Under the pieces are notes generated by a model. It did not search any database, was not told the origin of the DNA, and saw only the letters and a list, made by a program, of their open reading frames with translations. From contig CALAHN010000098.1 of assembly GCA_937891825.1 (NCBI GenBank), forward strand, positions 1-56,305: 56,305 bases of DNA. Direction: 5' to 3'. Position 1 is the stretch's first letter; each line of letters opens with the position of its first letter. The stretch is from an uncultured Alphaproteobacteria bacterium. Lineage in GTDB: Bacteria; Pseudomonadota; Alphaproteobacteria; Bin95. The position numbers and the translations under genes were made by a program. Shown here piece after piece: positions 1,486 through 18,468 of the stretch.

Positions 1486-1854
1486 ATGAGCCAGGAATCC
1501 CCGAAGCACATCAGCCGTTATCGGAGTTTCGAGGCATTCTGGCCGTACTATCTGGCCGAGCATGCGAAGCCCGCGACGCGCGCCCTGCATTTTGTCGGCA
1601 CGCTGCTCGGCCTCGGGCTGGCGCTCGCCGCGATCCTTCTGCAAAACTGGGCGCTGCTGCCGGTCGCGCTTGTTTGCGGCTACCTGTTCGCCTGGATCGG
1701 CCATATCGCGATCGAGCATAATCGGCCGGCGACATTTCAGTATCCGCTTTGGTCCTTCCTAAGTGATTTCCGCATGCTAGGCTTGTGGCTGACTGGCCGC
1801 CTCGGCCAGGAAATTCGGCGCACGCAATCGAACGACCAGGATGCCCCCACATGA
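1486..1854 (+). CDS. DUF962/Mpo1-like membrane protein
   Basis: A 122-aa protein resembling the DUF962 (Mpo1-like) family. Yeast Mpo1 is an Fe(II)-dependent dioxygenase that alpha-oxidises 2-hydroxy fatty acids; the function of bacterial members is largely unknown. Seen here: an N-terminal segment with FWPYYLAEH, two hydrophobic segments (about residues 35-55 and 58-75), and the family-typical IEHNRPATF followed by [21 protein letters not shown] ribosome site lies just before the ATG. Its stop overlaps the start of the next gene (ATGA), so the two are probably translationally coupled. Family call is good; biochemical role is inferred only. Confidence 0.85.
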
Positions 1855-3972: not shown

Positions 3973-4015
3973 CGAGGTCATGGCGCTCAAAGCGAAAAGG
4001 AAGGCCGGTCCGAGG

Positions 4016-4927
4016 ATGTCCAAGAGCCTGCGCGATCTCAGAGGATATGGGCGGACGCCGCCCGATCCGAAATGGCCCGGCGGCGCGCGCTTGGCGCTGC
4101 AGATCGTCATGAACTACGAGGAGGGGGCGGAGAATACGCTGCTGAACGGCGATGCGGCGTCGGAAGCGTTCCTGTCCGAGATCATCGGCGCCGCGCCGCT
4201 CGTCGGCGAGCGCAACATGAATATGGAAAGCATCTACGAATACGGCTCCCGCGCCGGATTCTGGCGGCTTTGGCGGCTGTTCGGGGAGCGCGGCCTGCCG
4301 ATCACCGTCTACGGCGTCGGCCGAGCGCTTGAGCTCAACCCGGAGGCCGGCGCCGCCATGGCGGAAGCCGGATGGGAGGTCGCGAGCCACGGCTATCGCT
4401 GGATCGACTACCAGACCGTCCCGGAAGCCGTGGAGCGGGCGCATATCCTGCAGGCAGTTCAGGCGATCGAGCAGACCGTCGGCAAGACCCCGGTCGGCTG
4501 GTACACCGGCCGGATGAGCCCCAATACCCGCCGCCTTGTGGTCGAGCACGGCGGCTTCCTCTATGACGCCGATTCCTATGCCGACGATCTGCCCTATTGG
4601 TCTTATGACTACGGCCGCCCGCACCTGATCGTGCCCTATACGCTCGACGCGAACGATATGCGCTTTGCGTCGGCCCAGGGCTTCAATTCAGGCGACCAGT
4701 TCTTCGCCTATTTGCGCGACAGCTTCGACGCGCTCTATGCCGAGGGGGCGGACTCGCCGAAAATGATGTCCGTCGGCCTGCATTGCCGCTTGGTCGGCCG
4801 ACCGGGCCGCATCATGGCGCTTGCGCGGTTCCTGGATCACGTCGCCAAGCATCCCGATGTCTGGGTCTGCCGCCGGGAAGATATCGCCCGTCACTGGATC
4901 GCAACGCATCCGCCAGAGGCGACCTAA
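4016..4927 (+). CDS. puuE: PuuE-type allantoinase / polysaccharide-deacetylase-fold hydrolase
   Basis: Metal-independent allantoinases of the PuuE family open the hydantoin ring of allantoin to allantoate and adopt a polysaccharide deacetylase (NodB) fold. This 303-aa protein follows that family closely from memory: RDLRGYG near the N-terminus, NYEEGAE (33-39), SIYEYGSRAGFWR, SHGYRWIDY, GWYTGR, LDANDMRF and a GLHCRL segment. The start at 4016 is chosen over an ATG 36 bp upstream because it aligns with PuuE N-termini and has a GAGG just before it. The gene ends in a 4-bp tail-to-tail overlap with the aminotransferase. No uricase or allantoate amidohydrolase is nearby, so the true substrate may be another cyclic ureide. 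Confidence 0.85.
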   Translation: MSKSLRDLRGYGRTPPDPKWPGGARLALQIVMNYEEGAENTLLNGDAASEAFLSEIIGAAPLVGERNMNMESIYEYGSRAGFWRLWRLFGERGLPITVYGVGRALELNPEAGAAMAEAGWEVASHGYRWIDYQTVPEAVERAHILQAVQAIEQTVGKTPVGWYTGRMSPNTRRLVVEHGGFLYDADSYADDLPYWSYDYGRPHLIVPYTLDANDMRFASAQGFNSGDQFFAYLRDSFDALYAEGADSPKMMSVGLHCRLVGRPGRIMALARFLDHVAKHPDVWVCRREDIARHWIATHPPEAT

Positions 4928-6129
4928 CGACCAGCTTGCCACGCCTTCGCGACGGCGAGGATGGCCGCGACGTCAGACGCATCGTTGTAGGCGTGCAGAG
5001 ACAGGCGGAGCAGGCCGCGCCGGATCGTGTGTTTGACCCCGGCGGCGATGAAGGCCTCGTGCAGGCTGACAAGGTCTGCGTCATCGGTCGCATCGTGCTG
5101 ATCCGCGAGGCCGGCGCCGATCGCGACGATGTGGACATTGTCGCGCGGATCGTCGGATCGGAAGACCGCGATGCCGAGGTCCGCCAAGCCGTCCCTCAGG
5201 TCGGCCGCGAGGCCGCAGGCATGGGCTTCGATGGCGCTTGGCTCAAGCATCGCCAGATCGGCCAGGCCCTGCGCCGCCGCCGCCGCTCCGAGATAGTTGA
5301 AATTCCCGAGGTCGAACCGCCGCGCGCCGGGCGCCAGCCTATAATCCTCAATCCCGGATGAAGCCGCTTCATGCTCCGAGTCCAAAACGACGCCCAGGCG
5401 CGACAGATATGTGGGCGTCATGGCTTCCGCGAGCTGCCGGCGCACATAGAGAAAGCCCATGCCGTAGAGGCCAAGCAGGCCCTTCTGCGTCGATGCGGCC
5501 AGGACGTCGATGCCGTCCCGCTTCACGTCGGTCGCGAGCACGCCCAGGGACTGGGCGCTATCGGCCATGATCTGCACGCCGCGCGCCTGGCAGGCTTGCG
5601 CTAGCGCCGCCATGGGCGTCCGGAAGCCCGGCGCGAAGGTCACGGTCGAGACCGCGAGGACGCGGGTCCTGTTGTCCATGGCGTCGATCATCGCCGCGAT
5701 GGGCATGCGCCCGTCCGGCCCGGCCGTCACGCCCTTGATGGCGATGCCGCGGGTCTTGACGAGATTAAGCCAGGGCAGGAGGTTCGCCGGATGCTCCAGA
5801 TTGGAGCACAGCACGACATTGTCCCCCGGCCGCCAATCGAGCGCGGTCGCGAAGGCGTTGATGCCATCGGAAATGTTCTTGACCAAAGCGACCTCGTCCG
5901 GCTCGGCGTTGATCAACCTGGCGAAGGCCGCGCGGCAGCGTTCGACGGTCTGGAACATCTCGGCCTTGTCGCCGCCTACATGCATGCGGGCGTCGAGATA
6001 TTCGTCCAGCGCCGCGCGGACGCGGGTCGAGATGACGCCGCGCGCCGAGACGTCGACATAGACGTTCTCCTGGGCGCCCGGAAACATCGCACGGAAGGCC
6101 GTGAAGTCGACATTGACGTGGCGGGACAT
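4924..6129 (-). CDS. Class V aminotransferase-like PLP enzyme
   Basis: Fold-type I PLP enzyme of the aminotransferase class V / cysteine desulfurase / isopenicillin N epimerase-like group, 401 aa. Asp190 (MADSAQSLG) and the PLP-binding Lys216 (ASTQKGLLG) are present, and the N-terminal VYVDVSARG matches the family opening. The start at 6129 follows a GAGGAGG ribosome site; nine upstream in-frame codons were dropped. It is the last gene of the minus-strand catabolic run, 23 bp after hyuB. It could be an aminotransferase, a lyase or an epimerase acting on the amino acid released by the upstream hydrolases; no closer assignment is possible. Confidence 0.85.
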   Translation of the reverse strand: MSRHVNVDFTAFRAMFPGAQENVYVDVSARGVISTRVRAALDEYLDARMHVGGDKAEMFQTVERCRAAFARLINAEPDEVALVKNISDGINAFATALDWRPGDNVVLCSNLEHPANLLPWLNLVKTRGIAIKGVTAGPDGRMPIAAMIDAMDNRTRVLAVSTVTFAPGFRTPMAALAQACQARGVQIMADSAQSLGVLATDVKRDGIDVLAASTQKGLLGLYGMGFLYVRRQLAEAMTPTYLSRLGVVLDSEHEAASSGIEDYRLAPGARRFDLGNFNYLGAAAAAQGLADLAMLEPSAIEAHACGLAADLRDGLADLGIAVFRSDDPRDNVHIVAIGAGLADQHDATDDADLVSLHEAFIAAGVKHTIRRGLLRLSLHAYNDASDVAAILAVAKAWQAGR

Positions 6130-6152
6130 GGCTCTGAGCCTCCTCGAATGGA

Positions 6153-7757
6153 TCAACCGGCGCGGCCGAAGCCGCCGCCGCCTGGGGTGCGGATGGAAAG
6201 GACTGCGCCTTGCGGCAGGGGCATGTCGGCCTCGGCCGCATTCAGAACGCGCTCGTCCGGCGCGCCTGGATTGAGAACGAAGGCGCCGGTCGCGCCCGCG
6301 CCGCCGCCGTCGAGGCCCCTGGCTGCCGCGTGCTGGCGTTCGGAGGACAGCGAGACCGTGACGCCGTCGATCAGCGCCCGATAGTCCCGGACGACCCCGG
6401 CGCCGCCGGGCCGCTGGCCCGCGCCGCCCGATCCGTCGCGGATCTGATAGCGCTCGACCCGGAGCGGATAGGCGTGTTCCAGGGCTTCGATCGGCAGATT
6501 GGCGGCGCCGGACGCATGCACGCGGACCGCATCCATGCCATCCCGGTAAGGCCGCGCGCCCATGCCGCCGGCGACGGTCTCATAGTTCACGAAGGTCTCG
6601 CCGGTTTTCGGATCGGGGCCGTTGAAGACCGCCAGATGATGCGGCCCGCTGGCGGCGATGGCTTTCTCCGGCATCGCCTTGGACATCGCGGCTGCGATGA
6701 CGTCGCCAAGGACGCCCGCCGATATCGAGCGGCACCCGACGGGCGCCGGCGCGGTCGACTGCACGACGCTGCCGTCGGGCGCGGCGACGGTCATGGTCTG
6801 GAAATAGCCGGCATTGGCCGGCACGTCGGGGTCCAGCAAGCTTTTCGCGACGGTGTAGACGGTCGCCAGCAAGGCCTGACGCGGGATGTTGCGCGCCCAG
6901 GTAAGTTGCGCCGCCGAGCCCGCGAAATCGAAGGCGAGGCGGCCATCGGCGATTGTCAGCGTCAGGCGGATCGCCGCCTGCGATCCCGCACTCTCCCCGT
7001 CGAGAAAGTCCTCGGCTGAGTAGACGCCTTCCTTCAGGCGCTCGATCGCCGCCTGAAAGCGCCGCCGGGTGAATTCCAGATAGGCGTCGATCGCAGGGGC
7101 CGTCTGGCCGCCATAGCGGGCGAACAGGTCGAGGACAGCGCGGATGCCGGTCAGGTTGGCCGCGATCTGGGCGCGGAGATCGCCATTCCGCTCGTCCGGC
7201 GTGCGGGAGTTCAGCAGCAGGAAGTCCAGAATGTCGTCGATGACCGCCCCGTCCCGGTAGATCCGCACCAACGGGATGCGCAGCCCCTCCTGGAAGATCG
7301 AACGGCATACAGCGGCTTCCGAGCCGGGCGTCATGCCGCCGACGTCGGAATGATGGGCGATGCTCGCGACATAGGCGACGATGGCGCCGTCCACATGAAC
7401 CGGCGCGATCACGTTGATGTCCGGCAGGTGCGACCCGCCGCCATTGTAGGGATCGTTCACCATGAACATGTCGCCCGGCTTGATCTCGGATGGGCGATAC
7501 TTGGCGCGGATCGCGGCGACGGCGCCGATCATCGAGCCGATATGGATCGGCACCCGATGCGCTTGCGCGACGACCCGGCCCTCGCCGTCGAAGACCGCGG
7601 TCGAGCAGTCGGCGCGTTCCTTGATGTTGGGCGAAAACGCCGTGCGGATCAGGGTGACGCCCATTTCCTCGGCGATCGACCAGAGCCGGCGTGATACGAC
7701 TTCCGCCGTTATGGCGTCGACTGCGACAGGGGCGCCGGCGGGGATGGCGGGGGTCAT
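6153..7757 (-). CDS. hyuB: Hydantoinase B/oxoprolinase family protein (HyuB)
   Basis: Subunit B of an ATP-dependent hydantoinase / 5-oxoprolinase / acetone-carboxylase-type enzyme, 534 aa. Family features include ITAEVVSRRLWSIAEEMG near the N-terminus, FSPNIKERADCS, DPYNGGGSHLPDI, HHSDVGGMTPGS and the glycine-rich C-terminus DGSGGAGQRPGG with a final TPGGGGFG. The start ATG (7757) overlaps the hyuA stop by 4 bp, which fixes it; the open frame continues far upstream only as a shadow of hyuA. With HyuA it likely opens a five-membered cyclic amide at the cost of ATP. Confidence 0.93.
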   Translation of the reverse strand: MTPAIPAGAPVAVDAITAEVVSRRLWSIAEEMGVTLIRTAFSPNIKERADCSTAVFDGEGRVVAQAHRVPIHIGSMIGAVAAIRAKYRPSEIKPGDMFMVNDPYNGGGSHLPDINVIAPVHVDGAIVAYVASIAHHSDVGGMTPGSEAAVCRSIFQEGLRIPLVRIYRDGAVIDDILDFLLLNSRTPDERNGDLRAQIAANLTGIRAVLDLFARYGGQTAPAIDAYLEFTRRRFQAAIERLKEGVYSAEDFLDGESAGSQAAIRLTLTIADGRLAFDFAGSAAQLTWARNIPRQALLATVYTVAKSLLDPDVPANAGYFQTMTVAAPDGSVVQSTAPAPVGCRSISAGVLGDVIAAAMSKAMPEKAIAASGPHHLAVFNGPDPKTGETFVNYETVAGGMGARPYRDGMDAVRVHASGAANLPIEALEHAYPLRVERYQIRDGSGGAGQRPGGAGVVRDYRALIDGVTVSLSSERQHAAARGLDGGGAGATGAFVLNPGAPDERVLNAAEADMPLPQGAVLSIRTPGGGGFGRAG

Positions 7758-9829
7758 TGGGCGGCCTCGCTCTCGGCTTGGACGGGAAGGTCGATCCGAA
7801 GATTGCCGATCCGGTCGCGGACGATCGTCGCGTCCGGCGGGATGACCGTCGTCGCATCCATCTGCTCGATGACGGCCGGCCCGCTGAAGGGCGTTTCGAC
7901 CGGCAGGGCGTCGCGGGCGAAGATCGGCGTCTCCCGGAACCCGCCCTTGAACCAGACCGGCCGCGTCTCGATCCGCGCGGCGGCGAGATCGCCGCCTGCA
8001 TCCGTCAGCCGGTCCGGCGGCGGCTTGCGGGCGATGACGACGGTCAGGCGGATATTCACGATCTCCACCGGCCGCTCGGGCATCGCGTGACCGTAGAGCC
8101 GCTCGTGACTGGCATGGAAGGCGGCGACAGCTTGAGCGAGCGCGGCGGCGTCCGCGCGCTCGCCCGCGAGCGGGATCGGGAGGTCGTAGTTCTGCCCGAG
8201 ATAGCGCATTTCGATCAGGCGCTCGGAGGCTGCCTCGGCGGCGTCCCGTCGTTCGGCGGCAAGCCAATCGGCGGCGCGCTCGTCCAGGGCCGCAAGGGCT
8301 GCATTCAGGTCCGGGATGGCCTCGGGCAAGGCTGGGGCCAGATGGGTCACGCTGAAATCGCCGCGGGCGTCCGCCTGGAGGAGGCCAAGCGCCGACAACA
8401 CGCCCGGCCGCGCCGGAACGATCACCCGGGGCATGCCCAGCATGGCGGCGACGTCGGCGGCATGCAGCGGGCCGGCGCCGCCGAACGGCATCAGCGCAAA
8501 GCGGCGCGGATCGTCGCCGCGCTCGACGGAAATCACCCGGACCGCGCCCATCATATTGACGTTGACGATATCGAGAATGCCCGCCGCCGCCGCCGTCAGG
8601 TCCAGGCCAAGCGGCTGGCAAAGCGTCTGTTCGATGGCGTCCCGCGCGCGCTCCGGAAAAACCGCCATGCGGCCGTCGAGCAAGCTCCGTTGATTGAGGC
8701 GGCCAAGCGCCATGTTGGCGTCGGTGACGGTCGGACTTTTGCCGCCACGGCCGTAGCAGGCGGGGCCGGGCATGGCGCCGGCGCTTTTCGGTCCGACCTT
8801 CAGCAGGCCGCCGGGATCGACCCAGGCCAGCGAGCCGCCGCCCGCGCCGATGGTGTGGAGGTCCAGCGTCCGGGCGCGGACCGGAAAGCCGCCCATGTCG
8901 CGGACATTGGCCTGACCGGGCGCGCCGTCCGCGATCAGGCAGACGTCGGTTGAGGTGCCGCCCATGTCGAAGGTGATGATATCGGGCGTCAGGGCGGCCT
9001 TGCTGAGGGTCGCGGCGCCGATGACGCCGCCCGCCGGGCCGGAGAAGAAGGTGTTGACAGGCGCCCGTCGGATGGCGGCCGGCGACACCGCGCCGCCGTT
9101 CGATTGCATCACCCGCGGCTCGACCGTGACGCCGATCGCCGAAAGGCCGGTTTCGAAGCGGGCGATATAGTCGTCGAGCAAGGGCATCAGGCTGGCGTTC
9201 ACCGTGGCGGTCGAAAAGCGCTCGAACTCCCGGAATTCCGCCAGGATATCCGAGGACGCGCAGAGATAGGCTTCCGGCCAGACCCCTCGGACCAGCGCCG
9301 CCGCCCGGCGTTCGTGCGCCGGGTTGGCGTAAGAGTGCAGAAAACAGATCGAGACGGCAGAGCACCCCATGTCGCGGAGGGCGATTGCGGCGTCCGTGAC
9401 GGCGGCTTCGTCCAGAGCGTCGATCGTCTGGCCGTCATGGGCGATCCGTTCCCGGACTTCGATGCGCTGGCCGCGCAATGACGGCGGCGTCGGCTTCTCG
9501 ATGTCCAGGTTGAAGAAGCTTGGCCGCCGCTGCCGCGCCAGATCCAGGATATCGCGGAAGCCAAGGGTCGTGATCGTCCCGGTCTTCGCCCATTTCCCCT
9601 CAAGCACGGCATTGGTCGCGAGCGTCGTGCCATGGCTGACGGCGGCCACATCGGCCGCCGCCCGTCCGGCTAGCGCCAGGCCAGCCTCAATCCCCTCAAG
9701 AATGCCGCGCGCAGGATCGTCGGGCGTCGTCGGGACCTTGTGCAGCCAGCGTTCGCCCGTGCGCGCGTCGGCGAGCGCGATGTCGGTGAACGTCCCGCCG
9801 GTATCGATGCCGATCCAAAGTTCCGCCAT
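7754..9829 (-). CDS. hyuA: Hydantoinase A/oxoprolinase family protein (HyuA)
   Basis: ATP-binding subunit A of the hydantoinase/oxoprolinase family, 691 aa. The N-terminus has the ASKHA phosphate-binding loop GIDTGGTFTDIA, followed by SHGTTLATNAVLEGK, FSGPAGGVIGA, DMGGTSTDV and a C-terminal FGGAGPLHA segment. An AGGGAGA ribosome site precedes the ATG. Coupled to hyuB by ATGA overlap. Members hydrolyse N-methylhydantoin, 5-oxoproline, D- or L-hydantoins, or carboxylate ketones; with neighbouring dihydropyrimidinase, cyclic amide hydrolysis is the likelier role here. An inverted repeat separates it from the upstream ThDP gene. Confidence 0.93.
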   Translation of the reverse strand: MAELWIGIDTGGTFTDIALADARTGERWLHKVPTTPDDPARGILEGIEAGLALAGRAAADVAAVSHGTTLATNAVLEGKWAKTGTITTLGFRDILDLARQRRPSFFNLDIEKPTPPSLRGQRIEVRERIAHDGQTIDALDEAAVTDAAIALRDMGCSAVSICFLHSYANPAHERRAAALVRGVWPEAYLCASSDILAEFREFERFSTATVNASLMPLLDDYIARFETGLSAIGVTVEPRVMQSNGGAVSPAAIRRAPVNTFFSGPAGGVIGAATLSKAALTPDIITFDMGGTSTDVCLIADGAPGQANVRDMGGFPVRARTLDLHTIGAGGGSLAWVDPGGLLKVGPKSAGAMPGPACYGRGGKSPTVTDANMALGRLNQRSLLDGRMAVFPERARDAIEQTLCQPLGLDLTAAAAGILDIVNVNMMGAVRVISVERGDDPRRFALMPFGGAGPLHAADVAAMLGMPRVIVPARPGVLSALGLLQADARGDFSVTHLAPALPEAIPDLNAALAALDERAADWLAAERRDAAEAASERLIEMRYLGQNYDLPIPLAGERADAAALAQAVAAFHASHERLYGHAMPERPVEIVNIRLTVVIARKPPPDRLTDAGGDLAAARIETRPVWFKGGFRETPIFARDALPVETPFSGPAVIEQMDATTVIPPDATIVRDRIGNLRIDLPVQAESEAAQ

Positions 9830-9871
9830 GCAGCGGTCTCCCTGCAGGAAATTAGGTCAATCGCCGAGTCT

Positions 9872-9900
9872 GGGACCGGCGCGCCGGCAGCGCCGGTCCC
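9872..9900 (-). terminator. GC-rich hairpin after the ThDP enzyme gene
   Basis: Perfect 11-bp inverted repeat: arm GGGACCGGCGC at 9872-9882, 7-nt loop, arm GCGCCGGTCCC at 9890-9900. It begins at the stop codon of the ThDP gene and sits 43 bp before hyuA on the minus strand. There is no run of T after it, so it may attenuate transcription or protect mRNA rather than fully terminate. Confidence 0.45.
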
Positions 9901-11552
9901 TAGAACCGTGAGCGCCGTTCCTCGACGTTCGCCTGCACTTCGATCAGCACGGTTCGTCCGGCAGCGTTCAGGCGTTGCGCTTCCTTCAGGGCCGGCGCTA
10001 GTTCCGAGGCCTTCGTCACCTTGATGCCGACCGCTCCCATGCCCTCCGCGATCTTCGCATAGTCGCCGTGCATGGTGGAGACGCCGTAGGTCTGGCGGGC
10101 TTCTTCACCGATCGTGCCGCGCGTCGGGCCGGAATATGTGGCCATGGCGCTGTTGTTCAGCAGCACCGTCGTGATGGCGGCGCCGGACCGTGCGGCGGTT
10201 TCGATATCCGTGCCGGACATGCCGAACGCGCCGTCGCCCATCAGGTTCAGGCAGAACTTGTCGGGCGCGGCCATTTTGGCGCCGATCATCAAGGGAATGC
10301 CAAAGCCCAGATGGGTGGTTTTGCCCCAGCCGATATAGCTGTGCGGCGTCGTCGCCGTGTAGAATGGCACGATCGTGTCGCGAGGGGCGCCGGCGTCGTG
10401 GGTGACGATGCTGTTCTCCAGGTCGAGCGTATCGTTGAGCGCCTGGATGACCCGGTAATAGGGGATCGGCTCCGCGTCCGACGCCAGAACCGGCGCCCAT
10501 TCCGCCATCCATTCCGCCTTCACGGATGCGACCTCGGCTTCGACCGCCTTTCGGTCGCCGCAGCCCTTGCCGCCGGTTTCCGCCTCGATCGCGGCGATCA
10601 GCGCGCGGATTGTCAGGAGCGTGTCGCCGACGAGGCCGATGTCGGCGGCCTCGTCCTTGTTCAGGTCATCGGGATTGGCCGAATTGTGGATGATGGTCTT
10701 GCCGGCCCCGATGCGCTGGCCATAGGGCGAGCGCGTCAGGCTGGAGCCTAGCGCCAGGAGCACGTCGCTTTCGGTCAGCCAGCGATGGGCGGCAAGCGTC
10801 GTCGTGCCGCTGCCGGCGCCAAGCGCCAGGGGATGCCGCTCGTCGATGGCGGATTTGCCGGGCATGGTCGCGAAGACGGGCGTCGCGGTCAGTTCCGCAA
10901 GCGCGCGTAGATCCGCTGTCGCCCCGGCGGCCAGCACGCCGGCGCCGGCCCAGATCACCGGGCGCTTCGCCGCGATCAGCGCCTTGGCGGCAGCCTGAAT
11001 ATCGCCGGATTCCGGCGCCTGCCGGGCCAGCTTGGGCGATTTATAGACCCGCGCCGCTTCCGGAACCTCTTGCCCGCAGACATCGACCGTCAGCTCGACG
11101 ACGACGGGTCCCGGCCGGCCGTTCCGCAGCGCATGGAAGGCGCGGCGCATGACGTCGCCGACCTGGCTCGGCGTATAGATCGCCTCCACCTGCTTGACCC
11201 AGCCCTGATAGCTCTGGACCGCGCTGAAGTTCGGCCGGACGCCGAGCCGGTCGAGCGCGTTGCCGCCGACGAAGACCAGGATCGGGATATTGTCCGCAAA
11301 AGCCTGGGCGAGGCCGCCCATGGCGTTCTCGGCGCCCGCCTGGGATTGTACGGCCGCGACGCCGAAGCGCTGCCGGTCGCCCATCCGGCTGTAGCCGTCG
11401 GCCGCCATGATGGCGCCGCGCTCATGCCGGAACGCAATCGGCCGGATGCCGATCTTCGCCGCGGCCGTGATCAAGGGGTTGCTTGGGAAACAGGACATCC
11501 ATTCCACGCCTTCCTGCTTCAGAATCTGGGCGATAAAGTCGATGCCGTTCAT
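9900..11552 (-). CDS. Thiamine-diphosphate-dependent enzyme (acetolactate-synthase-like)
   Basis: 550-aa member of the ThDP decarboxylase/acetolactate synthase superfamily with all three domains: N-terminal PYR domain with the conserved Glu44 (FRHERGA), a central domain (about 190-330) and the C-terminal PP domain with the GDG...NN cofactor motif (MGDGAFGMSG to LLNNSAM). Related enzymes decarboxylate or ligate 2-oxoacids (benzoylformate, oxalyl-CoA, sulfopyruvate, glyoxylate). An AGGGAGA ribosome site fixes the ATG. Upstream of hyuA and downstream of the TauD gene on the same strand, it probably acts on a 2-oxoacid intermediate. Specificity unknown. Confidence 0.88.
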   Translation of the reverse strand: MNGIDFIAQILKQEGVEWMSCFPSNPLITAAAKIGIRPIAFRHERGAIMAADGYSRMGDRQRFGVAAVQSQAGAENAMGGLAQAFADNIPILVFVGGNALDRLGVRPNFSAVQSYQGWVKQVEAIYTPSQVGDVMRRAFHALRNGRPGPVVVELTVDVCGQEVPEAARVYKSPKLARQAPESGDIQAAAKALIAAKRPVIWAGAGVLAAGATADLRALAELTATPVFATMPGKSAIDERHPLALGAGSGTTTLAAHRWLTESDVLLALGSSLTRSPYGQRIGAGKTIIHNSANPDDLNKDEAADIGLVGDTLLTIRALIAAIEAETGGKGCGDRKAVEAEVASVKAEWMAEWAPVLASDAEPIPYYRVIQALNDTLDLENSIVTHDAGAPRDTIVPFYTATTPHSYIGWGKTTHLGFGIPLMIGAKMAAPDKFCLNLMGDGAFGMSGTDIETAARSGAAITTVLLNNSAMATYSGPTRGTIGEEARQTYGVSTMHGDYAKIAEGMGAVGIKVTKASELAPALKEAQRLNAAGRTVLIEVQANVEERRSRF

Positions 11553-11578
11553 GTGCCGTCTCCCTGGCGCCGTCGAGC

Positions 11579-11594
11579 GCGGACCATGGTCCGC
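11579..11594. promoter_or_regulatory. Perfect 16-bp palindrome upstream of the ThDP gene
   Basis: GCGGACCATGGTCCGC is a perfect palindrome without a loop, 26 bp upstream of the ThDP enzyme start and 64 bp beyond the TauD stop. A loopless palindrome in an intergenic gap is more like a dimeric protein-binding site than a terminator. No cognate regulator is recognisable in the run. Confidence 0.35.
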
Positions 11595-11658
11595 CCCGCG
11601 GCTGCGTTATCTCTGGTCCGATTCTGCCGCCTATCCTGACGGTCCGGCGCCGTCTCTG

Positions 11659-12498
11659 CTAGACCGGCCGTTCGCCCGCCAACATGACCCGGTGCATGAC
11701 GCGCAGTTGGGTGATGTCATAGTCCGCGTTCGCCCGGTGCAGGGTGCAGCGATTGTCCCAGATCACGAGATCGCCCGGCCGCCAGACATGGCGATATTGG
11801 AACTGGGGCTGGACGGCATGGTCATAGAGCGCGTCGAGCAGCGCGTCGCTTGCGGCGTCGTCCCAGCCCACAATGCGGTCGATCCGATTGGGATTGATGT
11901 AGAGCGACTGCCGGCCGGTCGCGGGATGCGTTCGGATCAACGGATGATCGACGATCGGCGTCTCAGCGGTTTCGGCAGCGGACCTCGGCGCGACCCAGGA
12001 TTGGTTCCGACGGCTTAGATAAGCGTGCGCCGCGCGCTTGCCCTCGATCGCCTCCCGGAGCGCCGGGGGCAGGGCCTCCAGCACGGCATAGCAGTTGATG
12101 AACTCGGTATCGCCGCCGCTCGCCGGCAGGGTCTTCGCGAGCAGCAGCGTCAGCGTCGCGGGTTCGGCGAAATAGCTGTCGTCCGTATGCCAGTGACTGG
12201 CCTGGACCAGGGGCTTGCCGCCCAGGCCCGGCGGGCGGTTCGTGACGATCGAGACATCCGGCGCGCCCTCGATCCGGTCCTGGCGCAGGACAAACGGCTT
12301 CGGCGGTCCGAACAGCCGGGCCGCCGTCGCAAAAGCCTCGGGCGAGAGGTCCTGATTCTGAATGCACAACACGAGATGGTCATGAAGCGCCTGGCGCAAC
12401 GCCGCCGCGGTCGGGCCCGAGAGCGGTTGGGCGAGGTCGAGGCCCAAGACCGTAGCGCCAAGCGCCGCTCCGGACGGTTTGACGGCGAATGCAGTCAC
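11659..12498 (-). CDS. TauD/TfdA-family Fe(II)/2-oxoglutarate dioxygenase
   Basis: 279-aa non-haem iron dioxygenase that couples 2-oxoglutarate decarboxylation to substrate hydroxylation. The HxD iron motif is in HWHTDDSY (His104, Asp106) and the distal histidine in WDNRCTLHRANAD near the C-terminus, followed by the 2-oxoglutarate-binding arginine in RVMHRVML. The start is a GTG at 12498, 11 bp after the dihydropyrimidinase-like gene; the open frame runs further upstream only inside that gene, and 279 aa matches the family length. TauD and TfdA act on taurine and 2,4-D; the substrate here is unknown but is likely an intermediate of the cluster. Confidence 0.87.
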   Translation of the reverse strand: MTAFAVKPSGAALGATVLGLDLAQPLSGPTAAALRQALHDHLVLCIQNQDLSPEAFATAARLFGPPKPFVLRQDRIEGAPDVSIVTNRPPGLGGKPLVQASHWHTDDSYFAEPATLTLLLAKTLPASGGDTEFINCYAVLEALPPALREAIEGKRAAHAYLSRRNQSWVAPRSAAETAETPIVDHPLIRTHPATGRQSLYINPNRIDRIVGWDDAASDALLDALYDHAVQPQFQYRHVWRPGDLVIWDNRCTLHRANADYDITQLRVMHRVMLAGERPV

Positions 12499-12509
12499 GA
12501 CAGCCGCGC

Positions 12510-13934
12510 TCAGAGCGCCGGGCCGGTGCGGATCGACTGCGGCACCGTCCGCTTCAGATACTGGCCGTCGGCGAGGTCGCCCAGGAATTCGCCGTCCGCG
12601 ACCATCACCTTGCCGCGCAGCATGGTCAGGCATGGCCAGGCGGTGATCGCGTGGCCTTCCCAGGGGCTGTAGTCCGCTTCATGCAGGTTCGCCGCCTTCA
12701 CGGTTCCGCGCGCGCTCGGATCGAGGATGCAGATATCCGCGTCGGCCCCGGCGGCGATTGCGCCCTTGCGGGGATAAAGGCCCATGATCCGGGCGGCGTT
12801 GGCGGAAGTCTGGTCGACGAACTGGGTCAGCGAATAGCCGCGCTGTGTCACCATCTCATCATACATGACGCCGAGCCGCGGCTCGACGCCGGAATTGCCG
12901 CCGGTCGTATCGTCGATCCGCTCGCCGATAGTCTTGATGTTGAGATTGCAGCAGACCTCGTCGGTCGCGACGCAATTGATCGCGCCGTCGAGCGTGCCGG
13001 CCCAAAGCGCATCCTGATCCTGCTGCGACTTCAGCGACGGATATGTGTGATACATCTGCCCGTTCGGCCGTTTGTAGTCGTCCTGGGTGTAGAGCAGATA
13101 CTGGTGCAGGGTTTCGCCGTAGATCGGCTGGCCCTTGGCGCGCGCCTCGCGGATCGCCTGAACGCCCGTCGCGGCGCTGACATGCATCATGTAGAGCGGC
13201 GTCGCTTCCGCCTCTGCGAGCCGGAGCACCCGTCGGAAGGACAGGTCCTCCGAAAGCGCGTTGTGCACTTCCGCCAGATTATGGAAGCTGACCCGGCCCT
13301 CGCGGATCAGCTTGCCGTACATGTGCATGACGATGTCGTTGTCCTCGGCATGGATGACGCCAAGCCCGCCGGCGCGCGAAAGCGTCTTGAACAGCTCCCA
13401 GAGGTCGCCGAAATGCACCATCCGGCCGGAGCGGCTGGGCGTGATGTTCGTCGTGAAGATCTTCACAGTCGGGTAGCCGGCGTCGATCATCGCTGGCAGT
13501 TCGTCGAAGACGGACGGCGGAATCTCGCCGAGCAGCATCAGGTGATAGGCGTAGTCGCAATAGCACTTGCCCGCCCAGTCCAGGTCGCGCTTGGCGACGA
13601 TATCTTTCAGGGGCAGCGGCTCATTGCGGGCGGCGAAATCGATCAGCGTCGTGGTGCCGCCCCAAAGCGCGGCGCGGCTGACGACTTCGGGCGGCGCGCT
13701 TACCATGGCGGAGCCGTCGGGGAGCGGCATGTGCCAGGCGCAGTGGACGTGGGGGTCGACGCCGCCCGGAATGACGATCTTGCCCGCCGCGTTGACGATC
13801 CGGCGGGCCGAACTGTCGGGGATCGCGCCGGGCGCCGTCACGGCGGCGATGCGCTCGCCCGCAACCGCGACATCGAAACTATCGACGCCGGACGGGGTGA
13901 CCGTTTTGCCGCCTCGGATCACGGTATCGAACAT
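12510..13934 (-). CDS. Dihydropyrimidinase/hydantoinase-like amidohydrolase
   Basis: Zinc amidohydrolase of the dihydropyrimidinase/D-hydantoinase/allantoinase group, 474 aa, cutting a cyclic diamide ring. The binuclear metal centre is visible: His62 and His64 (PHVHCAW), Lys158 (TVKIFTT, the lysine normally carbamylated), His195 (VIHAED), His251 (MMHVSAA) and Asp325 (ATDEVCC). The start at 13934 follows an AAGGGAG site; nine upstream codons were dropped. It lies directly after the CobW GTPase gene and before TauD. DHPase, hydantoinase or a dedicated enzyme for another heterocycle remain possible. Confidence 0.9.
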   Translation of the reverse strand: MFDTVIRGGKTVTPSGVDSFDVAVAGERIAAVTAPGAIPDSSARRIVNAAGKIVIPGGVDPHVHCAWHMPLPDGSAMVSAPPEVVSRAALWGGTTTLIDFAARNEPLPLKDIVAKRDLDWAGKCYCDYAYHLMLLGEIPPSVFDELPAMIDAGYPTVKIFTTNITPSRSGRMVHFGDLWELFKTLSRAGGLGVIHAEDNDIVMHMYGKLIREGRVSFHNLAEVHNALSEDLSFRRVLRLAEAEATPLYMMHVSAATGVQAIREARAKGQPIYGETLHQYLLYTQDDYKRPNGQMYHTYPSLKSQQDQDALWAGTLDGAINCVATDEVCCNLNIKTIGERIDDTTGGNSGVEPRLGVMYDEMVTQRGYSLTQFVDQTSANAARIMGLYPRKGAIAAGADADICILDPSARGTVKAANLHEADYSPWEGHAITAWPCLTMLRGKVMVADGEFLGDLADGQYLKRTVPQSIRTGPAL

Positions 13935-14002
13935 GGACTGGCTCCCTTGAAGACCCCACATCCGCCATGGAACGGCGAAGCGCCGCCCGTGTCCAGTGCC
14001 GC

Positions 14003-15010
14003 CTAGCCGCTCGCCGCGCCTGCTTCTTCGTCAAGCGCGTCCAGCAGGATTTCCGGCCAGCCGGGCGTCAGGTTTTCGCCGATTAGCGTCAGTCGGGTGG
14101 TCCGGTCCGCATCGGGCCAGCGGTCGAGCCATTCGATGGCATGAAACACGTGCTGCACCCCATGGATCACCGCCGGCCGCTCCGGCGCTTCCGCGATTGC
14201 GGCCAGCCCCTTCACCCGGAGCAGCTTCGGGCCATAGGCCTCCGCCAGCGCCTCCAGGAAGACCGGCAGCGCCGCCGCCCGGATGGGCTTTAGCCGCCGC
14301 ACAGAAATCGATCCGATCCCGCCGTGGTCGTGGTCGTGGCTGTGCTCGTGGTCGTGCTCGTGGTCATGCGCTTGACCGCGTTCGGGGCCAACGACGCCAG
14401 GCGCTGGCAGAAAGACCGCGGGCGCGACGTCGCCCATGACAGCGACGATCTGCTCGGCCGACGGGTTGAGGGCGGCGGTCCGGCCGGCGAGGGCGGCCGT
14501 CGCCGCCGCGCCCGCGAGATCGGACTTGGTCAGGATCAGCACGTCCGCAATCGCCGCCTGCCGCCGGGCCTCGATGCGCGCGTCCAGCGTTTCGGGGCCG
14601 GTCAGGGAGTCGACGGTCGTGACGATGTGGGCGAGATACGTCGTCTCGGCCAGCGCCGGATCGAGCAGCAGGGTCTGGACAATCGGGCCGGGATTGGCGA
14701 TGCCGGTCGTCTCGACGACGAAGCGGTCGAAGGCGATCAGGCCGGCGCGGCGCCGGCCCATCAGGTCCTTGATCGCGCGGGCGAGATCGCCCTGGGCCGC
14801 GCAGCAGAGGCAGCCGGTCGAGAGCGTCAGCAGGCCTTCGTCGCTGGTCTCGATCAGATGATGGTCGAGGGCGACGTCGCCGAACTCATTCATGATGACC
14901 GCCGTCTTCTGGAACTCTGGCCGCCGGATCAGGCGGGCCAGCACGGTGGTCTTGCCGCTGCCGAGAAAGCCGGTCAGCACCGTGACGGGAAGGCGCGCGC
15001 CGGCCGTCAT
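14003..15010 (-). CDS. CobW/COG0523 family metallochaperone GTPase
   Basis: 335-aa G3E GTPase of the CobW/P47K/ZigA family. It has the P-loop GFLGSGKTT (14-22), the family metal-binding motif CLCC (67-70), TKSD guanine recognition (161-164) and a histidine/aspartate-rich loop between about 215 and 229 typical of zinc- or nickel-handling members. The start overlaps the stop of the 102-aa upstream gene. COG0523 proteins deliver metal to partner enzymes; the next gene is a zinc amidohydrolase, making it a natural candidate client. No Zur box was recognised, so zinc control is not shown. Confidence 0.92.
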   Translation of the reverse strand: MTAGARLPVTVLTGFLGSGKTTVLARLIRRPEFQKTAVIMNEFGDVALDHHLIETSDEGLLTLSTGCLCCAAQGDLARAIKDLMGRRRAGLIAFDRFVVETTGIANPGPIVQTLLLDPALAETTYLAHIVTTVDSLTGPETLDARIEARRQAAIADVLILTKSDLAGAAATAALAGRTAALNPSAEQIVAVMGDVAPAVFLPAPGVVGPERGQAHDHEHDHEHSHDHDHGGIGSISVRRLKPIRAAALPVFLEALAEAYGPKLLRVKGLAAIAEAPERPAVIHGVQHVFHAIEWLDRWPDADRTTRLTLIGENLTPGWPEILLDALDEEAGAASG

Positions 15011-15315
15011 TCGGCCGCCGCGCCGGCGCTCACGAACAGAACCCGCGCCGCCGGCCGCTCTGGCGCCAGATGGCCGCCCAGCGAACGGATGGCGCCCTGG
15101 GCGGAGGCATGGACGCGCGCCCGCTCGCCCATGGCCTGCACCTCCCAGATGATGCCGGCGGGCGTATGGGTCCGCTTCGCCAAAATATCCGGCGCCGAAG
15201 CGCGCGCGATCCGGGCTTCGACGCCGCCCGGTATCTCCGCCGCCGTCACCTCGGCCGCGACCGACCACGCCGCGAGCAGGCCTTCGATGAAGCGGCAAAG
15301 GTCGGCGGGCGTCAT
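15007..15315 (-). CDS. Uncharacterised 102-aa protein coupled to CobW
   Basis: Not recognised. The product is a small soluble alpha/beta-looking protein with no signal peptide or membrane segment, starting MTPADLCRFIEGLLAAW and containing a HTPAGIIWEVQAMG segment that could form a beta-rich core. It starts 2 bp after the fumarylacetoacetate-hydrolase-family gene and overlaps cobW by 4 bp, so it is clearly embedded in the operon and its codon use resembles its neighbours. Only two cysteine/histidine candidates are seen, so a metal-binding role is not supported by sequence alone. Confidence 0.7.
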   Translation of the reverse strand: MTPADLCRFIEGLLAAWSVAAEVTAAEIPGGVEARIARASAPDILAKRTHTPAGIIWEVQAMGERARVHASAQGAIRSLGGHLAPERPAARVLFVSAGAAAE

Positions 15316-15317
15316 CG

Positions 15318-16253
15318 TCAGGCGGATTTGGGCGCGTATTTGCCAGTCAACTGCGGCGTCGGCGTGTCGAAGCCCTGGTTCTTGCGGTCGAGGCGGGTTT
15401 CGCGGCTCCAGGTGCGTTTCAGGTCGTCGCGGACGCCGAAGGCGAGGCGGCCGAGGCCTTCGACCTCAAGCTGCACGATGTCGCCGTCCTGGAACGAGCT
15501 GAGGCCGCGATGGTTGGTGCCGGTCGCGATGATGTCGCCTGGCTCGAGCGTCTGGAACGAGGAAATCCATTCCACCACCTGAGGGATCTTGTGGGCCATG
15601 TCGGAGGTGTTGAAATCCTGCTTTAGGTCATCGTTGACCCAAAGCTTCACATCCAGATCCTGCGGGTCCTGGATTTCGTCCGCCGTCACAAGATAGGGGC
15701 CGATGGGGGCGAAGGTGTCGCGGGACTTCATCTGGAAGAAGACGTTGCCCGCGGGCGGCAGGCCGCGAGCGGAGCCGTCGATGAAGTTCATGTAGCCGAA
15801 GATGTAGTCGAACGCCTTCGCGGCCGGCACATGGCTGGCGCGCTTGCCGATGACGATCGCGAGCTCGGCTTCGCCTTCGAAGATCGTCGCGGGTACGTCG
15901 GGCAGAACCATGGCGTCGCCGGGGCCGATGATGGCGCTCGCGGCCTTGTGGAAGCCATTGCGGGGCGGCGGAGCGGCCAGGGTGCCGTCCTCCATGTAGT
16001 TGACCGCCATGCAGGCGATATTGCCAGGCTTCGGCACGGGCGGGCGGATGCGTACGCTCTCCGGCGCGAACGCCGCGCCCGCCGCCGCCGCCGCTTCCAG
16101 CCGTTGGCGATATTGGGCGAAATCGGCGATCAGGCCGTTCATGCGGTCGCCCGGCCCGACATGGGGAATATCCGCGAGCACGTCCGTCACCTCGACGATG
16201 CCGCGCGCCGTCAGAACGCCAACTTGATAGTCGTTGAAATGCAGAAGTTTCAT
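15318..16253 (-). CDS. Fumarylacetoacetate hydrolase-family enzyme
   Basis: FAH superfamily hydrolase/decarboxylase/isomerase of 311 aa acting on 2-oxo- or acylpyruvate-type acids. The metal-binding signature FEGEAELAIVIG carries Glu126 and Glu128, followed by the aspartate in FIDGSARG and the GDIIATGTNHRG loop; the N-terminal accessory domain is present. An AAAGG precedes the ATG. In degradation pathways such enzymes act on late ring-cleavage intermediates, which fits its position in a catabolic run, but the substrate is not predictable. Confidence 0.9.
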   Translation of the reverse strand: MKLLHFNDYQVGVLTARGIVEVTDVLADIPHVGPGDRMNGLIADFAQYRQRLEAAAAAGAAFAPESVRIRPPVPKPGNIACMAVNYMEDGTLAAPPPRNGFHKAASAIIGPGDAMVLPDVPATIFEGEAELAIVIGKRASHVPAAKAFDYIFGYMNFIDGSARGLPPAGNVFFQMKSRDTFAPIGPYLVTADEIQDPQDLDVKLWVNDDLKQDFNTSDMAHKIPQVVEWISSFQTLEPGDIIATGTNHRGLSSFQDGDIVQLEVEGLGRLAFGVRDDLKRTWSRETRLDRKNQGFDTPTPQLTGKYAPKSA

Positions 16254-16298
16254 CTCTGGTCGCCTTTCTACTGGAGCGCGGGCCGCCTGAGCTGCCGG

Positions 16299-16649
16299 TT
16301 ATTCGATCGGCACGAAGATGGAGTGGCGCAGCTTGCCGGCGATCGCCTTGGAGCAATGGCCCTTGCCGTGGGTATCCTCCACCAGGATGACTTCGCCGGC
16401 GGCGATGGTCCGGGTCTCGCCGTCGCTCGCCTGAATTGAAACGCCCGCGTCCAGGTTGATGATGTACTGGCGGCGCGGCGCCGGATGCCAGGCGTAGTCA
16501 TAGGTTCCTGGCGTCTCGCGGAAGATGATGCCGGTCGCGGGCAGCAGCGCCGATGTCCGGCCGCCCGGACCTTCGCTCTTCCATTCGACCTCGATGTCGC
16601 GGAAATGGGTTTCGCCTTGATCGTCGACGTAGAGATTATGAATGCGCAT
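16299..16649 (-). CDS. Cupin-like small protein
   Basis: 116-aa protein with a cupin-like beta-barrel pattern: a first motif around WHPAPRRQYIINLDAG, a linker and GEVILVEDTHGKGHCSK with conserved aspartate, histidine and glycine. Proteins of this type occur widely in proteobacteria without assigned function. Preceded by AAAGG and 45 bp upstream of the FAH-family gene on the same strand. It may be a small metal-dependent isomerase or oxygenase, or a ligand-binding protein; the sequence does not decide. Confidence 0.75.
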   Translation of the reverse strand: MRIHNLYVDDQGETHFRDIEVEWKSEGPGGRTSALLPATGIIFRETPGTYDYAWHPAPRRQYIINLDAGVSIQASDGETRTIAAGEVILVEDTHGKGHCSKAIAGKLRHSIFVPIE

Positions 16650-16685
16650 TGTCCATCTGTGCCTTTCGTGTGGGTCGCCTGGCGG

Positions 16686-17579
16686 TCAGGTCGACAGGGG
16701 CTTAATCACCCGGTCGCCGAAGTCCGCCAGCATGTCCTCAAGGTTCGCCTGAAACGCCGCGAGCGGCAGAACGATCCGGCTGACCCCGGCTGCAGCCAGC
16801 GCCGCCACGGCGGCGCGCGGGTCCTTGCCGGAGCCGGGCAGGGCGTCGGGGCAGCCGGTCATGACCTGGATGGCCGCGGGGTCGCGGCCGGCCGCCCTGG
16901 CCGCCTCATGCAGCGACCGGATCAGCGCCGCCGTGTCCGAAGCCGCGCCCGTCGCCGGGAAGTAGCCGTCGCCCAGCCGGCCGGCGCGGCGGATCGCCGG
17001 CGGCGTGTTGCCGCCGACGATGATCGGCACCCGCCCTTGCGCCGGCTTCGGGTTGCAACTCATGCCCTTGAACGCCGCGAACTCGCCCTCGAATGAGGCG
17101 TCGTCGCCGTCCCAGAGCGCGCGCATCGCCGCCATGTAGTCGTCATTCCGGCGGCCGCGCCGCTCGAACGGCACGCCGAGCGCTTCGAACTCCTCCCGCA
17201 GCCAGCCGACGCCGACGCCAAGCTCCAGGCGCCCGCCGGTCATGTGGTCCATGGTCGCCAGTTGCTTCGCCAGCACCAGGGGATTGCGCTGCGGCAGGAC
17301 CAGAACGCCGGTGATCAGACGCAGCTTCGTCGTGACCGCGCCGACATAGGTCAGCCAGGTCAACGGGTCGGGCCACGGCATGTCGACGCCTCCCGGCAGG
17401 CGCCCGGTCGGCGAATAGGGATAGCGGGTCGTGTATTCGGTCGGGATCACGACATGCTCGACCGCAATCACGGATTCGAAGCCGGCAGCCTCGCCGGCGA
17501 GCGCCATGCGCTTGGCGTCCGCCGGATCGGGGAAGGCGATATTGCCGAAATGCAGCGCGAACTTCATCGGGGTTTGCAT
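16686..17579 (-). CDS. LLM-class flavin/F420-dependent oxidoreductase
   Basis: 297-aa luciferase-like monooxygenase (bacterial luciferase TIM-barrel) of the type with a KFALHFGNIAFPDP start and the motif GGRLELGVGVGWLREEFEALGV, resembling the family annotated as F420-dependent in actinobacteria. Proteobacterial members may use FMN instead. The start at 17579 follows GAGGCGG; a second ATG four codons on lacks a ribosome site. It begins 10 bp after the MBL-fold gene. Such enzymes include the ring-opening RutA, so an oxidative first step is plausible. Confidence 0.87.
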   Translation of the reverse strand: MQTPMKFALHFGNIAFPDPADAKRMALAGEAAGFESVIAVEHVVIPTEYTTRYPYSPTGRLPGGVDMPWPDPLTWLTYVGAVTTKLRLITGVLVLPQRNPLVLAKQLATMDHMTGGRLELGVGVGWLREEFEALGVPFERRGRRNDDYMAAMRALWDGDDASFEGEFAAFKGMSCNPKPAQGRVPIIVGGNTPPAIRRAGRLGDGYFPATGAASDTAALIRSLHEAARAAGRDPAAIQVMTGCPDALPGSGKDPRAAVAALAAAGVSRIVLPLAAFQANLEDMLADFGDRVIKPLST

Positions 17580-17589
17580 GGCCGCCGCC

Positions 17590-18468
17590 TCAATCGCGCT
17601 TGAATGTGTAATTGAAGCGGGCGTCGCCATCGGCCGTCACCAGGCCGACTGTCGGCGTCGGGAAGTGGATCGGCAGGATCAGCGTATCGGTCTCCGCGAC
17701 CGACGCCAGGAAGGCGCGCCGCGATTTAGCCGATTGGACCGGGTCCCAGTCCGGCTTCGCCGACCAGTCGGGTTCGCGGCACTGGATCGCGTGGTGCATC
17801 ATGTCGCCGGTCACCACCGCCCGCTGGCCGCGGGAGAAGATGTTGACGCAACAATGGCAAGGGGAGTGGCCGGGCGTCGGCGTCAGGGTGATCATGTCGT
17901 CAAGCTGGAAATCGTCATCGACCAGCAGCGCCTGTCCGGCTTCGACGATCGGCAGGCAGTTGTCCCGAAACACCGTGCCGGGCGGGTTGGCGCCGCGCTG
18001 ATGCTCGGCTTCCCAAACGGCATATTCGCCTTTGTGGAAGATATACTTCGCGTTGGGGAAGGTCGGAACCCAGCGGCCGTCCTTCAAGGTGGTGTTCCAG
18101 CCGGTGTGGTCGATATGCAGGTGCGTGCAGAAGACGTAGTCGACGCTTTCAAAGGTGACGCCAAGCGCGAAAAGCTCGTTCCGCCAGCGCGCCTTGCCGG
18201 GAAAATCGAAGGGCGGCGGGTGGCCCTTGTCCTCGCCGGTGCAGGTGTCGATCAGGATCGTGCGGCTGGGCGTGCGGACGACGAAGGTCTGATATGTGAC
18301 CATCAGCATGCCGAGCGCCTTGTTGTAGACCTCCGGCTCCATCGACGGCAGATGGGCGTCGAACGTCGCCTGATCGAGCGTCGGGAAGAAGTGGGCCGGC
18401 TTCCGCCATGGCCCCTCCCGTTCAATCACGGCATCGATGGTGATGTCGCCGATCCGAATCTGCCGCAT
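17590..18468 (-). CDS. Metallo-beta-lactamase-fold hydrolase
   Basis: 292-aa MBL-fold protein with the metal motif HLHIDH (116-121), a downstream TPGHSPCHCCV histidine and GDMMHH aspartate, giving a complete binuclear centre. Relatives include lactonases and quorum-quenching N-acyl-homoserine lactonases; substrate is uncertain. The start at 18468 follows AGGGGGA; a 49-residue upstream extension is rich in proline and lies in the intergenic gap. It is the first gene of the 12-gene minus-strand run, with a divergent promoter region (18469-18632) shared with another LLM gene. Confidence 0.88.
   Translation of the reverse strand: MRQIRIGDITIDAVIEREGPWRKPAHFFPTLDQATFDAHLPSMEPEVYNKALGMLMVTYQTFVVRTPSRTILIDTCTGEDKGHPPPFDFPGKARWRNELFALGVTFESVDYVFCTHLHIDHTGWNTTLKDGRWVPTFPNAKYIFHKGEYAVWEAEHQRGANPPGTVFRDNCLPIVEAGQALLVDDDFQLDDMITLTPTPGHSPCHCCVNIFSRGQRAVVTGDMMHHAIQCREPDWSAKPDWDPVQSAKSRRAFLASVAETDTLILPIHFPTPTVGLVTADGDARFNYTFKRD

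Follow-up and report, generated by a model that had tools for sequence, protein, structure and literature searches.

A hydantoinase-family enzyme, a COG0523 GTPase and a small protein form a recurring core in a long operon-like gene run of an uncultured alphaproteobacterium

We analysed a stretch of 56,305 nucleotides from an uncultured Alphaproteobacteria bacterium of the lineage Bin95 (GenBank assembly GCA_937891825.1, contig CALAHN010000098.1; hereafter the window). The window carries a run of 12 closely packed minus-strand genes. Three adjacent genes of this run form a core that recurs in alpha- and betaproteobacteria: DHP, a dihydropyrimidinase/D-hydantoinase-like amidohydrolase; CobW, a GTPase of the COG0523 family; and p102, a protein of 102 amino acids whose family has no known relative in the libraries searched. 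Across the loci compared, the remaining nine genes of the run show no tie to this core. As contig C98, the window belongs to a source genome (G000) of 4.3 Mb in 163 contigs, which is 99.97% complete.

From sequence comparisons we favour, with fair rather than strong confidence, a lineage-specific composite operon that has grown around the conserved core and in which CobW and p102 would metallate DHP. The core trio probably makes and runs a metal enzyme that opens nitrogen-containing rings. We assign DHP a ring-opening role because of its family and its metal ligands; p102 and CobW are cast as its partners because of gene order, co-occurrence and phylogeny.

Recurrence of DHP, p102 and CobW

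Our main sample contains the best 80 of 225 stretches with DHP relatives in 84,980 species genomes (L021-L100; hereafter DHP loci). DHP was also searched in 60 related genomes, where orthologues with 74-83% identity occur in G002, G004, G006, G008-G011 and G013, and fragments with 72-73% identity in G012. A third sample consists of 289 genomes of the class.

Gene calling and clustering across the DHP loci revealed a recurrent gene of about 100 amino acids, the p102 family. Family members were identified at E<1e-3 with a profile built from 30 seed sequences, 29 from DHP loci plus p102 itself. The family is present at 72 of the 80 loci, in 71 cases within 2.5 kb of DHP and on the same strand (3.7 kb away in L068). 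CobW lies within 5 kb of DHP and on its strand at 51 loci. Both partners are found at 48 loci, p102 alone at 24, CobW alone at three and neither at five (L026, L052, L053, L061 and L081). At the three loci with CobW alone (L022, L023 and L069) DHP sits within 1.2 kb of a contig end. The p102-like gene follows DHP at 48 loci and precedes it at 24; the order p102-CobW-DHP, which the window has, prevails in its nearer relatives. A cultured strain, Paeniroseomonas aquatica CECT 7131 (L087), also carries the three genes next to one another.

The same association appears between genomes. Among the 289 class genomes p102 was found in five, a count that may miss some because at most 16 candidates per genome were scored at first look. 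The DHP subfamily (E<=1e-100) is present in eight genomes (nine copies), and all five p102 genomes are among these eight (hypergeometric probability 3.5e-9). Two of the five, G000 and G216 (contig L042), had contributed to the training set, and with the other three alone the probability is 5e-6. Within all five genomes p102 is directly beside CobW, and in four it is also near DHP.

Control loci, examined with flanks of 1.5 kb, lack this association. No p102 was found at 26 non-core CobW loci, and all three core CobW loci of the same 29-locus set have it. Nor was there a match at E<1e-3 at ten loci of distant DHP paralogues (L010-L012 and L014-L020; 31-34% identical). A plasmid search with p102 gave no match; the same search with DHP gave one Arthrobacter plasmid (46%), with no p102 or CobW match in 7 kb on each side. 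As a side observation, two DHP-like stretches in tandem (59% and 69%) precede p102 and CobW in G080 (L259, 178-1895).

The CobW phylogeny points the same way. In a maximum-likelihood tree, 51 core CobWs (46 of the 52 sequences from DHP loci, the window and four from class genomes) are separated from 27 others by a branch with support 99/98. The comparison proteins are near rather than remote members of COG0523, because 26 of them were the best non-core matches to the window CobW. Among the sampled COG0523 proteins the core CobWs form a single lineage, although the clade might yet break up with wider sampling.

Alternatively, DHP may have p102 as a structural or regulatory subunit, with CobW being a separate zinc-homeostasis gene that is often located close by. 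Such an arrangement would explain why p102 is the more frequent companion of DHP (72 loci, 24 of them with p102 alone, against 51 for CobW). However, p102 is beside CobW in every class genome that has it, even in G107, where DHP is on another contig, and the core CobWs form a single clade. We find the subunit explanation rather doubtful and prefer p102 and CobW as joint partners of DHP.

The enzyme and its two partners

DHP aligns over its full length with D-hydantoinases (best PDB chain 4kqn, 242.5 bits). Six residues, H66, H68, K162, H199, H255 and D329 in alignment numbering, are invariant in 13 of 13 aligned sequences; in this enzyme family the set (HxH, Lys, His, His, Asp) provides the ligands of a binuclear metal centre. 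The first-pass annotation had proposed cyclic-amide-opening enzymes in the run, and an enzyme of this type at its centre is supported by the family alignment together with the full ligand set.

DHP nevertheless differs from D-hydantoinases. Its score against the D-hydantoinase equivalog TIGR02033 is 317.6 bits, below the cut-off of 393.25, and about seven extra residues follow the bridging Lys. The metal Asp is followed by Glu, one further residue and a Cys pair: ATDExCC at 77 of the 80 DHP loci (L079 has ATDDICC; L052 and L081 gave none). At this position 4kqn and 1yny have SDHCPF, within GSDHCPF, that is, His after the metal Asp. Most of the distant paralogue loci also have His: a pattern search over each locus found the string (S/A)(S/T)DH in nine of ten, and in L018-L020 it reads ATDHCCF.

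Could DHP be an ordinary dihydropyrimidinase or hydantoinase that acts on pyrimidines or hydantoins, with p102 and CobW incidental? D-hydantoinase and dihydropyrimidinase are its nearest families, and seven DHP loci have a gene of the M20 hydantoinase/carbamoylase family. Yet the equivalog score stays below its cut-off, His beside the metal Asp has become Glu, an asparaginase gene rather than a carbamoylase gene lies downstream at 12 loci, and the co-occurrence statistics of p102 count against it as well. An ordinary enzyme is therefore improbable in our view, and we continue with DHP as a distinct subfamily that has partners of its own.

The first partner, CobW, has the Pfam domains cobW and CobW_C, a P-loop, the motif CLCC and a long His-rich stretch. 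CxCC is present in 50 of the 52 CobWs of DHP loci. Domains, P-loop and CxCC are shared with known COG0523 GTPases (Nha3, YciC/ZigA and CobW). What sets the core CobWs apart is their clade, separate from 27 sampled CobWs of the class, and their association with an enzyme of the hydantoinase family and with a small orphan protein.

The second partner, p102, has no match in Pfam or NCBIfam at E<=0.001. Among the 65 members of its family, three Pfam families match no more than one each at E<0.1 (best 0.009), and the family profile has no PDB match at E<=1. The AlphaFold model is confident (mean pLDDT 92.4) and consists of a helix, five strands and a helix, for which Foldseek returned nothing at E<=0.001. 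A second structure aligner gave Z scores of up to 9.0 for Med17C, 7.2-8.2 for CapZ beta and 5.3-6.8 for CyaY/frataxin. These middling matches may reflect a common arrangement and nothing more; a frataxin-like metal chaperone fold was considered, and its Z is too low to claim.

The twelve-gene run and its surroundings

All 12 minus-strand genes named in the first-pass annotation are located as described, according to open reading frames, Pfam and NCBIfam, and PuuE, ADH and a 2-hydroxyacid dehydrogenase converge on them from the plus strand (Table 1). The gene called cupin-like exists too, but it lacks a Pfam or NCBIfam match at E<=0.001, and its label is by eye only. The spacing is operon-like: intergenic gaps range from -4 to 106 bp (from MBL to the aminotransferase about 10, 36, 45, 2, -4, 68, 11, 106, 70, -4 and 23 bp), with ATGA overlaps at p102/CobW and HyuA/HyuB. 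A pattern scan for terminator-like sites on both strands of 4700-20300 found five where 7.9 were expected, hence no excess.

Table 1. Genes of the run, of the converging plus-strand group and of the distant Rieske pair. Starts were read from the sequence or picked from open reading frame translations; those of LLM, TauD (GTG at 12498), DHP and the aminotransferase are our choice.
Feature	Position in window	Strand	Remarks
MBL, metallo-beta-lactamase-fold hydrolase	17590..18468	-	PF00753
LLM-class flavin-dependent oxidoreductase	16686..17579	-	PF00296; TIGR03619 263 bits, cut-off 166.9; start at MQTPMK
Small cupin-like protein, 116 aa	16299..16649	-	no Pfam match; label by eye
FAH-family hydrolase	15318..16253	-	PF01557; nearest solved chain maleylpyruvate hydrolase
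p102, 102 aa (core gene 3)	15007..15315	-	family without convincing Pfam or PDB match; ATGA overlap with CobW
CobW/COG0523 GTPase (core gene 2)	14003..15010	-	PF02492 and PF07683; CLCC motif, P-loop, His-rich stretch
DHP, dihydropyrimidinase/D-hydantoinase-like amidohydrolase, distinct subfamily (core gene 1)	12510..13934	-	six metal ligands; ATDExCC
TauD-family Fe/2-oxoglutarate dioxygenase	11659..12498	-	PF02668; GTG start
ThDP-dependent enzyme	9900..11552	-	PF02775/00205/02776; near PRK06154, 602.1 bits, cut-off 607
HyuA, ATP-dependent hydantoinase/oxoprolinase family	7754..9829	-	PF01968/05378/19278
HyuB	6153..7757	-	PF02538; ATGA overlap with HyuA
AT5, class V aminotransferase/cysteine-desulfurase fold	4924..6129	-	PF00266; start at MSRHVN
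PuuE-type allantoinase family protein, stand-alone	3980..4927	+	TIGR03212 523.1 bits, cut-off 424.6
ADH, zinc-dependent alcohol dehydrogenase	2920..3972	+	66-67% relatives near DHP in L032, L033 and L035
HADH, D-2-hydroxyacid dehydrogenase	1785..2900	+	31-47% relatives in 9 of 80 DHP loci
AndAc-like Rieske dioxygenase large subunit	40225..41412	+	possible partner, about 25 kb from core
AndAd-like Rieske dioxygenase small subunit	41422..41910	+	45-47% identity to relatives' gene

The annotation had read the 12 genes as one dedicated route for a heterocycle. Its central element, an enzyme of the cyclic-amide-opening type, stands; the single route is not supported, since a check for conserved co-occurrence across the 80 DHP loci shows most of the genes scattered in relatives. 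For this check 21 window genes were compared by tblastn with the 80 loci. DHP was found in all 80, CobW in 52 and p102 in nine. FAH and cupin had no match. MBL (35-43%), HyuA and HyuB (31-40%) each matched at two loci, TauD at six (31-35%), LLM at ten (26-39%) and PuuE at three (31%). ThDP and AT5 had look-alikes at three (23-26%) and two loci (24-25%), respectively. Judged by these identities, the only non-core gene at an orthologue-like level is ADH, which is outside the twelve and lies 5-8 kb from DHP where it occurs.

Pieces of the run occur apart in other genomes. Strong ThDP matches (E<=1e-100) are present in 27 of the 289 class genomes, with 73-80% identity only in G001, G292 and G207. 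In G001, of the same genus as the source, ThDP is found with the cupin-like gene (85%), the adjoining FAH orthologue (78%), a different LLM gene, GST and MFS (the latter by eye) in a cluster without DHP (L150, 888-7309). This cupin-FAH-LLM-GST-ThDP-MFS cluster is possibly a separate, unrecognised pathway. A gentisate-type lower pathway came to mind, with FAH near maleylpyruvate hydrolase and the GST of G001 beside LLM, but the cupin-like protein, with its 116 amino acids, seems too small for a gentisate dioxygenase, and no other fitting gene was seen. Cupin relatives exist in 20 of the 289 class genomes; nine further strong cupin loci that were fetched hold no ThDP match, and FAH solely as a 29% look-alike in L228.

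The remaining genes behave similarly. AT5 relatives occur in seven of 190 genomes; in G028, one of four fetched loci outside the source genome, AT5 follows HyuA (48%) and HyuB (53%) in the same order. That G028 stretch (L237, 7111-16605) also contains a beta-eliminating lyase, an arylmalonate-decarboxylase-family gene and an NMT1/THI5-like binding protein. MBL has relatives in 25 of 190 genomes, at 83% only in G107 and G024, whose MBL loci share nothing else with the run apart from a 25% HyuB look-alike. TauD relatives (at most 51%) are found in seven of 190 genomes; at the two best TauD loci the rest of the run is absent.

HyuA has 15 matches at E<=1e-60 in the source genome, the window copy included, and reaches at most 47% identity in 13 other genomes searched. 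With so many copies, HyuAB is weak evidence, and so is the earlier argument from independent ring-opening systems. The family is strongly expanded more widely, with seven to 18 matches in eight relatives of the genus or family searched.

The whole run could still be one dedicated pathway for a particular heterocycle, so far in this lineage only. Tight co-directional packing with two ATGA overlaps would suit such a pathway, all genes are of catabolic or accessory types, and LLM-type and TauD-type genes are near DHP at 14 and six of the 80 loci. Nevertheless, no second copy of the complete run was found in the genomes and loci compared, and its pieces lie apart in G001, G028, G107 and G024. The same-genus genome G002 (C119, L021) keeps the core and otherwise has only a non-orthologous LLM gene and, on the opposite strand, a 33% TauD look-alike. 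A single pathway thus appears unlikely to us. Within the samples compared, the separate occurrence of its pieces makes the run a composite, and it is the composite around the core that we pursue.

Although the specific genes differ, their types return around the core. The combination of two types of oxygenase with a ring-opening enzyme, pointed out in the first-pass annotation, has parallels, since oxygenases and C-N hydrolases recur near DHP relatives. Asparaginase-family genes are found at 13 of the 80 DHP loci, 12 of them on the DHP strand within 2.4 kb downstream. The M20 genes are mostly upstream and on the same strand (six of seven loci), and one member scores 269 bits against TIGR01879 (cut-off 204). 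Amidases occur at seven loci and PuuE-like genes at three; any of the four C-N hydrolase types is present at 24. As to oxygenases, 19 of the 20 LLM genes at the 14 loci are on the DHP strand. Immediately upstream of the core, L024, L027 and L036 have AndAc/AndAd-like Rieske subunits, and L025 has an AndAd-like small subunit and a cut large subunit. The window pair is 53% and 47% identical at best to these relatives. A quinazolinedione/anthranilate route suggested by the AndAc-like pair is not claimed (equivalog scores of 425 in L036 and 405 in the window, against 750). PhyH-like and NIPSNAP-like genes (names by eye) are found at seven loci each, on the opposite strand; one PhyH-like member matched only a chlorinating-enzyme model, with 75 bits against a cut-off of 226. 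With oxygenases and hydrolases varying in this way across the DHP loci, the core stays while its partners change.

None of the known pathways tested accounts for the run, in line with the first-pass annotation: scores for the D-hydantoinase, RutA, caprolactamase and ErtD equivalogs of NCBIfam are all below cut-off. The score against NF058538 (hydantoin-5-propionate amidohydrolase ErtD; cut-off 600) is 169.1 bits, and the LLM enzyme has 46.6 bits against the RutA model TIGR03612 (cut-off 498.3). HyuA has all three HyuA Pfam domains and is accompanied by HyuB, as in the HyuAB, caprolactamase and 5-oxoprolinase enzymes, whereas HyuA and HyuB score only 514.6 and 232.4 bits against the caprolactamase models NF050156 and NF050157 (CapAB; cut-offs 1000).

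For PuuE, the family assignment is sound (TIGR03212; nearest solved chain 3cl6, PuuE), but a role in uric acid breakdown is unsupported because the source genome has no match to OHCU decarboxylase (PF09349), which five of the 14 genomes searched possess. The orthologues in G001, G005, G007 and G008 (61-67%) are fused in one reading frame to OHCU decarboxylase, in contrast to the stand-alone window protein. Two further PuuE-like copies (47-51%) are present in the source genome.

A possible maturation system for DHP

In our proposal CobW takes up metal and GTP, and p102 serves as the adaptor with which it would load the binuclear centre of DHP. Mature DHP would then open a cyclic amide, imide or ureide by hydrolysing a C-N bond of the ring. 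Next, a further hydrolase, in relatives the type II asparaginase or M20 carbamoylase, would release ammonia or carbamate; the ring or side chain of the given substrate may be handled by oxygenases that can replace one another (LLM, Rieske, TauD or PhyH). That LLM, TauD, FAH, ThDP, HyuAB and the aminotransferase extend the route in the source genome is a guess.

As a candidate substrate of DHP, a cyclic imide or ureide fits both kinds of downstream hydrolase. Cyclic-imide pathways likewise use a ring-opening amidohydrolase and then an amide hydrolase. So do hydantoinase/carbamoylase pathways, in which a ring-opening amidohydrolase precedes an amide or carbamoyl hydrolase, and M20 or asparaginase genes lie beside DHP relatives; the window run, in contrast, has neither.

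The core is modelled, by analogy, on Nha3 and iron-type nitrile hydratase: a metalloenzyme, its own metallochaperone GTPase and a small adaptor. Nha3, the nitrile hydratase activator, is a precedent for one COG0523 protein serving one enzyme (PMC9164220, PMC2770081). For many COG0523 GTPases no client protein is known. A 2022 review proposes gene-cluster studies to predict clients (PMC9164220), and 15 subfamilies have been published, with descriptions by gene neighbourhood (PMC2770081). In our literature search no paper described a hydantoinase-family enzyme like this one together with a COG0523 gene, although an earlier listing among COG0523 subfamilies is possible. The nearest published case found is a fosmid whose tabulated genes include a CobW-like one in the company of acetophenone carboxylase and hydantoinase B (PMC3676327). 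By its title, a paper on nicotinamidase-pyrazinamidase concerns an amide-hydrolysing metalloenzyme that needs metallochaperones, as we propose for DHP; it does not mention CobW, COG0523 or GTPase (PMC6941528).

Several observations weigh against the proposal. First, the partners are not always there. CobW is missing within 5 kb at 29 of the 80 DHP loci; 12 of these have less than 2 kb of contig on one side, and 17 do not. Four DHP copies, two in G066 and one each in G199 (where the stretch searched is a contig of 5.5 kb) and G292, have neither CobW nor p102 in the fetched stretches. In G107 the p102-CobW pair and DHP are on different contigs, and in G057 a distant DHP paralogue (32%) is beside a CobW (38%) without p102 (L014, 650-2883). 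Second, the altered motif is a limited guide. The Cys pair is also present in three of the ten distant paralogue loci, so only the Glu is distinctive, and three of the four partnerless copies carry ATDExCC, which is therefore not tied to CobW. Third, structure gives little help: the predicted DHP structure is poor (pLDDT 63.5), uninformative on the metal site and was not used, and without a clear structural match the fold does not fix the role of p102. Finally, the C-N hydrolase and LLM counts are modest, and the LLM density of 1.76 per 100 kb in DHP loci compares with 0.48 in only 23 unmatched control loci of the class, with two of the five query proteins taken from DHP loci.

In a more specific version, this COG0523 lineage and the new small-protein family would together be dedicated to maturing a hydantoinase-fold enzyme whose motif beside the metal Asp is altered (Glu for His), possibly by loading a metal other than zinc. 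We offer this only tentatively, as a conjecture that may well fail. If it is true, DHP would be, as far as we know, the first enzyme of the hydantoinase fold to have metal-insertion partners of its own. COG0523 GTPases would thereby gain a new class of client, and a small-protein family that is not in Pfam would be given a function. Gene order, co-occurrence, controls and phylogeny here point to one COG0523 client and one possible adaptor. Furthermore, a long and tidy operon can be a patchwork, the parts of which need separate testing.

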